From an uncultured Parasutterella sp. (GTDB lineage: Bacteria; Pseudomonadota; Gammaproteobacteria; Burkholderiales; Burkholderiaceae_F): DNA of 36,141 bases. Within the stretch, counting starts at the first letter, position 1; the number at the start of each line of letters is the position of its first letter. Location: NCBI GenBank assembly GCA_947625105.1, contig CANQMZ010000004.1, positions 1-36,141 on the forward strand, read 5' to 3'. The translations under genes and the position numbers were made by a program. The notes under the pieces were generated by a model. That model was not told where the DNA came from and did no database searches. It saw only the letters and a list, made by a program, of their open reading frames with translations. Below are positions 34,200 to 36,141 of the stretch, piece after piece.

Positions 34200-34889
34200 A
34201 TGCTAACTACAGGTCAAGAATTTATTAAGTTCTGTATTGATTGTGACGTTCTGAGATTTGGCTCGTTTAAGACAAAAGCCGGAAGAGATTCTCCTTATTT
34301 TTTTAATGCAGGACTCTTTGATAACGGATCTAAACTTGCGCTATTTGCCGCTTTCTACGGTATGACTTTGTTAGAGGCCATCGAGCAAAAAGGACTTAAA
34401 TGCGACATGCTTTTTGGTCCAGCCTACAAAGGAATTCCTCTTGTGGCAGCAACGGCGACAGTTTTGGCAATGAGAATGGGAGTGAGTTTCCCGTTTAGTT
34501 TTAATCGGAAAGAAGTCAAGGATCACGGAGAAGGTGGTAACGTCATAGGAGCACCTATCGAGGGTAACGTGATCATTCTTGACGATGTCATTTCTGCCGG
34601 AACATCAGTTCGAGAATCCATCGAAATTATTAAGGCAAATGGAGGCAACCCTGCGGGCATCATTATTGCTCTTGATCGGATGGAAAGAGCAGGAGACGCT
34701 AAAAACATCAAACCACTATCGGCAGTTGAGGATGTTGAACAAACTTTCGGAATTCCCGTCATTGCGATCGCAACCCTCGAGGATCTTTTAGGTTACTTGA
34801 AAAAAACAAGAAAGAAGGCACTTTTGGGCAAAAGAGAAAAAATAGAGACTTACCTGAAAAAGTATGGGTCGCTAAAAATACAGAATTAA
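34200..34889 (+). CDS. pyrE: Orotate phosphoribosyltransferase
   Basis: PyrE converts orotate and PRPP to OMP in de novo pyrimidine synthesis. The 229-residue length is normal. It begins with QEFIKFCIDCDVLRFGSFK and KAGRDSPYFFNAG (orotate side), has FGPAYKGIPL and the flexible-loop Lys segment NRKEVKDHGEGG, and the PRPP-binding motif VIILDDVISAGTS. An imperfect hairpin (34882-34919) covers its stop; gene-poor DNA follows. Confidence 0.95.
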   Translation: MLTTGQEFIKFCIDCDVLRFGSFKTKAGRDSPYFFNAGLFDNGSKLALFAAFYGMTLLEAIEQKGLKCDMLFGPAYKGIPLVAATATVLAMRMGVSFPFSFNRKEVKDHGEGGNVIGAPIEGNVIILDDVISAGTSVRESIEIIKANGGNPAGIIIALDRMERAGDAKNIKPLSAVEDVEQTFGIPVIAIATLEDLLGYLKKTRKKALLGKREKIETYLKKYGSLKIQN

Positions 34890-35406: not shown

Positions 35407-35435
35407 TTGGACATGGAGATGATATTAGATACAAT
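35407..35435 (+). promoter_or_regulatory. Sigma-70-like promoter of the PD-(D/E)XK transposase gene
   Basis: TTGGAC, exactly 17 bases, TACAAT: 4/6 matches at -35 and 5/6 at -10. The expected start point near 35442 leaves a leader of about 16 bases with AAGGAA before ATG 35458. Confidence 0.6.
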
Positions 35436-35457: not shown

Positions 35458-36141
35458 ATGAACAAAGAATTTAGATCGTATATCAGGGAAGTCAGGCTGT
35501 TCGATGATTACTTTTTTGGGATCTTTTTTCGTGATGATCCGAAGTATATCGAGGTCGTCATTCAGGCGATTTTCAAACAACAGGGAATCCCCTCAGTCAA
35601 AGTCAAAGAGATCCACGTCCAGCATGACCTCGTTTCCCCCTACAGAGGAGTACGCTTGTCAAACGGGCAAGATACTACAGTGCCATGATTGACACCAATA
35701 CACTGGAGCAGGGTAAGGATTTCGACAAACTGCCAGAGAACTACGTGATTTTTATCACGGAGAAAGACTTTCGGGGTGATGGAAAGCCAGCCTATCAAGT
35801 TGAAAGGTATTATGTGGATGATCATAGGCCTTTTTCGGATGGTACGCATATTATCTTTGTCAACGGACAGCATAGCGGGGACGACCCTATTGGAATGTTA
35901 ATGCATGATTTTTCAAGTAAAGGAGCTAATGAGATGAAGAACGCTGTATTGGCTGAAAGAGCCCGTTTCCTTAAAGAAACCGATGAAGGACATAGTGAGA
36001 TCTCGCGTATTGAAGAGGCTATCAGAGACGAGGGAAGAGCCGAGGGAAGAGCCGAGGGAAGAGTCGAGGGAAGAGTCGAGGGAGAGGCTATTGGAATGGT
36101 CAAGGGAAGAGCCGAGGAAAAAAATAGTTTGGCTAAGAGAA
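35458..36141 (+). pseudogene. Rpn-like PD-(D/E)XK nuclease family transposase, core deleted and frameshifted, runs off window
   Basis: From ATG 35458 (behind AAGGAA) the first 67 codons read NKEFRSYIREVRLFDDYFFG ... QHDLVSPYRGVRL, the N-terminal half of the PD-(D/E)XK 'transposase' family. The family then continues with a segment like 'D.YA.DE.G..YDIEIQ' carrying the catalytic Asp and Glu-x-Gln. Here that segment is absent: after RL (35658) the reading frame changes and resumes at 35661 with KRARYYSAMIDTNTLEQG, YVIFITEKDFRGDG and HIIFVNGQHSGDDP, open to the window end. The second half is not in the ORF track. A C-terminal Glu/Gly/Arg repeat (EGRAEGRAEGRVEGRVEG) is typical of the family. Deletion plus frameshift make it non-functional as written. 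Confidence 0.78.
36030..36083 (+). repeat. 12-bp tandem repeat in the transposase tail
   Basis: There are four full units of GAGGGAAGAGCC or GAGGGAAGAGTC and one partial unit, encoding EGRA/EGRV. The last base pair varies only at one position (C/T) between units 1-2 and 3-4, indicating recent unit duplication. Confidence 0.9.

Follow-up and report, generated by a model that had tools for sequence, protein, structure and literature searches.

The stretch of DNA analysed here, which will be referred to as the window, comprises 36,141 nucleotides and represents the entire contig C4 in the draft genome of an uncultured Parasutterella sp. (GCA_947625105.1). At its end, a gene copy of the Rpn family of recombination-promoting nucleases (PD-(D/E)XK) is located on the plus strand at positions 35458 to 36141, with its last ~30 codons lying beyond the contig end; all window features described below are on the same strand. 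Approximately 570 bp upstream, an ORF (34200 to 34889) was found whose translation resembles an orotate phosphoribosyltransferase and which we take to be pyrE. The initial annotation had designated the gene at the contig end as a transposase gene. Products of rpn genes are indeed annotated as putative transposases, but they have been described as DNA endonucleases with an anti-phage role, the tail of which is separately made as an antitoxin (PMC10327210, PMC5350276). As autonomous transposition is reported to be absent for rpn genes (PMC10327210), the designation was abandoned in favour of that of a nuclease toxin with an intragenic C-terminal antitoxin.

Judged by its sequence, the window gene is a member of the Rpn family, since both of its halves match an intact paralogue on contig C201 of the same genome (G000:C201), which encodes 281 aa and is clearly recognised by TIGR01784 (E = 2e-25, 90 bits versus a cut-off of 52). 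Comparison with C201 by tblastn yielded identities of 56% for the left part (E = 1.2e-16) and 73% for the right part (E = 3.7e-68), both far beyond chance. The left segment (35458 to 35658, 67 codons, to GVRL) and the right segment (35652 to 36141) also match homologues in genomes G002, which belongs to the same genus, and G063. The window remnant itself matched TIGR01784 below the cut-off, and PF12784 gave a weak match to the right-hand part. A second, more distant rpn copy of the same genome, on contig C11, is truncated by the contig end. No match to C201 was obtained among PADLOC and PDB sequences, and a plasmid search returned only distant Rpn of Lactobacillus iners. The D...ExQ arrangement of the PD-(D/E)XK pattern, known from RpnA-E of E. 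coli (TIGR01784, PF12784/PF04754, COG5464), is likewise present in C201, and as in E. coli there are multiple copies, tail-only copies and variable four-residue repeats in the C-terminal tail. In the window these repeats are EGRA/EGRV (36030 to 36086), resembling the variable repeats of RpnS (PMC10327210).

The alignment with C201 clearly confirmed what had been noticed initially, namely an N-terminal half that breaks off and resumes in a different frame with D...ExQ gone. The left segment reads MNKEF...PYRGVRL, and the right segment, TLVKRARYYSAMID... (TLVKRARYY...), is stop-free in a second frame from 35652 to the contig end. Thus, the two halves do lie in different frames, but they are not separated by two bases as proposed, since the frames overlap at the junction. 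Aligning the halves with this full-length homologue demonstrated that 73 bp are missing from the interval bounded by the left L and the right L, which are codons 68 and 92 in C201; this number is not divisible by 3, so that the reading frame is disrupted. Among the lost codons are those for D69, E83 and Q85 of C201, which by motif pattern rather than computed alignment correspond to D63, E82 and Q84 of E. coli RpnA. In RpnA, the exchanges D63A, E82A and Q84K abolish all three in vivo phenotypes, whereas Q84A causes loss of recombination with toxicity kept (PMC5350276). The four examined relatives that are full-length or nearly so (C201, C11, G002:C53 and G063:C14) all keep D...ExQ. In contrast to working Rpn members, the window copy is frameshifted and lacks the 73 bp carrying D, E and Q, and consequently represents a non-functional derivative from which an active nuclease cannot be made. 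Contrary to what had been claimed, not all of the catalytic core is missing: the lost stretch surrounds the active site, and the LFDD acidic pair and the arginine of VKR remain.

The N-terminal fragment forms an ORF of 76 aa (35458 to 35688), family-like over codons 1 to 67 and frameshifted thereafter up to a TGA (35686 to 35688). This stop overlaps, as ATGA, the start codon at 35685 of a C-terminal ORF that is open at the contig end (35685 to 36141) and could be translated by reinitiation. The conserved MID motif gives rise to this overlap, which may be accidental. A rejoining of the halves by programmed frameshifting was rejected: inspection by eye revealed no standard slippery heptamer in frame 0, and D, E and Q would be missing from such a product as well.

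The junction, GTACGCTTG (35650 to 35658), reads VRL in the left frame, which is the family pattern preceding the catalytic D (RTVRLD and RSVRLD in relatives). Read in the right frame it is ACG-CTT-G(TC), T-L-V, whose leucine is conserved across C201, G002 and G063. Because it reads sensibly in both parental frames, a stretch shared by both parents is probable, and a short direct repeat at the junction probably mediated the loss. The microhomology suspected near 35656 to 35662 is thus likely to exist, at 35650 to 35658. Its length (4 to 9 bp) and the exact endpoints are deduced from the paralogues, as an unbroken parent of the window copy was not found.

Our favoured interpretation, held with good but not full confidence, is that the window copy is a recently made pseudogene for the nuclease of an Rpn family member (TIGR01784 / PF12784), which lost ~73 bp with the catalytic residues via a short repeat. 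Short direct repeats, each with CTTG and probably (GTA)CGCTTG, would have allowed recombination or replication slippage, removing the segment carrying the three catalytic residues, a loss shown by the paralogue comparison, and shifting the frame. As far as the contig extends, the C-terminal part, including the candidate internal start, is left physically intact and might still be translated. Such an event would be in line with a genome in which rpn copies generally arise, recombine and decay. Searches of same-genus and same-family genomes, of a sample from the class and of viral contigs did not turn up the joined form, and the idea that it is widespread was dropped.

A simple deletion alone leaves a sharp jump in divergence at the junction unexplained, which argues for either conversion by a C201-like copy or a join between paralogues. 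Amino acid identity to C201 is 59% left of the junction and 91% immediately right of it, and third-position differences amount to 41% and about 20%, respectively (Fisher p = 0.006; the Fisher counts, in contrast to these identities and differences, are affected by a one-codon offset near the junction). The statement that both flanks are well conserved thus applies to the right flank, the left one being only moderately conserved. This step, which is located at the junction or within the missing segment, might be explained if the junction were not a deletion within one gene but the product of illegitimate recombination, which used a short sequence common to two rpn paralogues to fuse the 5′ part of one to the 3′ part of the other. 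We consider this possible but rather doubtful, as a simple deletion preceded or followed by C201-driven gene conversion of the right part would look identical and the searches revealed no second donor of the left type, though contig breaks in the repeats hide the donor gene order. On either side of the junction, the window copy and C201 are both far from G002 and G063.

Under the favoured reading of a short-repeat loss in a nuclease pseudogene, the loss looks recent from the sequence comparison, since the window copy shows neither an excess of amino acid changes relative to C201 nor a further stop. With G002 as outgroup, 6 changes in the window copy versus 11 in C201 were counted for the left part and 7 versus 12 for the right part, neither difference being significant. 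With both outgroups, G002 and G063, relaxed constraint was not seen in the window copy by this count, a test that is weak for very short times. The initial proposal of a recent deletion is therefore in agreement with the data, and no additional stops were present. The claim of an intact promoter was not supported: the promoter-like TGGACA-16-TACAAT upstream of the gene (35408 to 35435) is a consensus match at chance rate, with 2 such matches found versus 2.1 expected by chance, although its TACAAT element is shared with C201.

Self-inactivation or selection against nuclease activity had also been suggested. This proposal is not sustained, as there is only one such case, and remnants in the same genome consist of the tail only (C108, C183, C102 and C18) or of the core only (C154), although the pieces on C108, C183 and C102 are at or near contig ends and their upstream parts may be unassembled. 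The coexistence of tail-only pieces with the core-only C154 shows that breakage is not core-specific, and core-specific loss as a rule was rejected. Since intact and fragmentary copies of the family occur elsewhere in the genome, the locus looks like routine gene decay, in which one member of a recombining, multi-copy toxin-antitoxin family recently lost its nuclease function. Taken alone, such a decayed gene is ordinary.

The remnants differ in structure. The last 600 bp of C108 carry on the reverse strand two successive tail pieces, the second of which has its own ATG and a Shine-Dalgarno-like site ~17 residues before the repeats and represents a candidate stand-alone antitoxin-like gene. 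C18 contains a short stand-alone tail ORF (MTKATEK...LKAKI, about 1450 to 1620) without four-residue repeats, and C154 (85 to 246) contains the nuclease core stretch only (SVRLDVVA...NIEIQR), followed by TAG. On the reverse strand of G002:C53, several C-terminal tail pieces, each ending in a stop of its own, lie in tandem downstream of an intact rpn gene (1375 to 2016) and form an array of tail cassettes.

The window tail resembles the intragenic RpnL/RpnS toxin-antitoxin systems described by Zhong et al. 2023 (PMC10327210) in having a candidate internal start before the repeats, the toxin part of the window copy, in contrast, being dead. This candidate start of an RpnS-like C-terminal protein consists of a Shine-Dalgarno-like AAAGGAG and an ATG at 35934 (35919 to 35936) within the conserved KGA(D/N)EM motif, and close equivalents are present in C201, G002:C53 and G063:C14. 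Predicted duplex energies ranged from −7.7 to −8.4 kcal/mol in the four copies, near the best 2–5% of background positions. Compared with E. coli RpnAS, the predicted RpnS would be longer (about 95 aa in C201).

These features might indicate a selected toxin-null allele in which the nuclease was lost but the RpnS-like antitoxin encoded within the gene was kept and could act in trans to neutralise related Rpn toxins. RpnL is blocked by RpnS in E. coli (PMC10327210), the candidate ribosome site and ATG are conserved in four copies, and tail-only ORFs occur on C108, on C18 and in G002. According to Zhong et al., some rpn genes are followed by genes for small homologues (PMC10327210), so that tail-only copies, found here likewise, are a known phenomenon. 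Nevertheless, we regard this explanation as unlikely. Only a single such allele was seen, its tail is visible only to the contig end, and the internal Shine-Dalgarno sequence may simply reflect conservation of the amino acids encoded there. Moreover, the window tail exceeds that of C201 by one four-residue repeat, and as a one-repeat difference abolished inhibition in the case of E. coli RpnC (PMC10327210), action on C201 is not expected. That the RpnS-like tail is still expressed from an antitoxin-only allele under selection, protecting in trans against related Rpn toxins, appears less likely still. If the tail were made and blocked an Rpn toxin, the locus would be a natural gene-within-a-gene toxin-antitoxin pair minus the toxin, and such an antitoxin-only tail would illustrate one way in which the stand-alone antitoxin tails near rpn genes can arise.

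An assembly artefact, i.e. a chimeric contig or gap filling between rpn paralogues, would account for halves of unequal divergence in a gene at a contig end of a draft genome of 215 contigs, in which rpn repeats break contigs, but is highly improbable, as the sequence shared at the junction (≤9 bp) is well below usual assembler word sizes and no other contig is identical to either half. The end of C4 (36109 to 36141) is identical to C201 over 33 bp and the end of C108 over 77 bp, and because of these exact matches the rpn repeats seem to break the assembly.

Broken rpn copies were also observed in other genomes. G063 carries another copy that is frameshifted just past the core and contains stops. 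A Selenomonadaceae copy (L036, about 2000 to 2390) starts at QRARY, with the N-terminal half including the core absent and repeat-like sequence in its place. In G158, contigs C53, C56, C70 and C97 carry several N-terminal-only rpn ORFs (open frames of 107 to 132 aa) that end just past the core.
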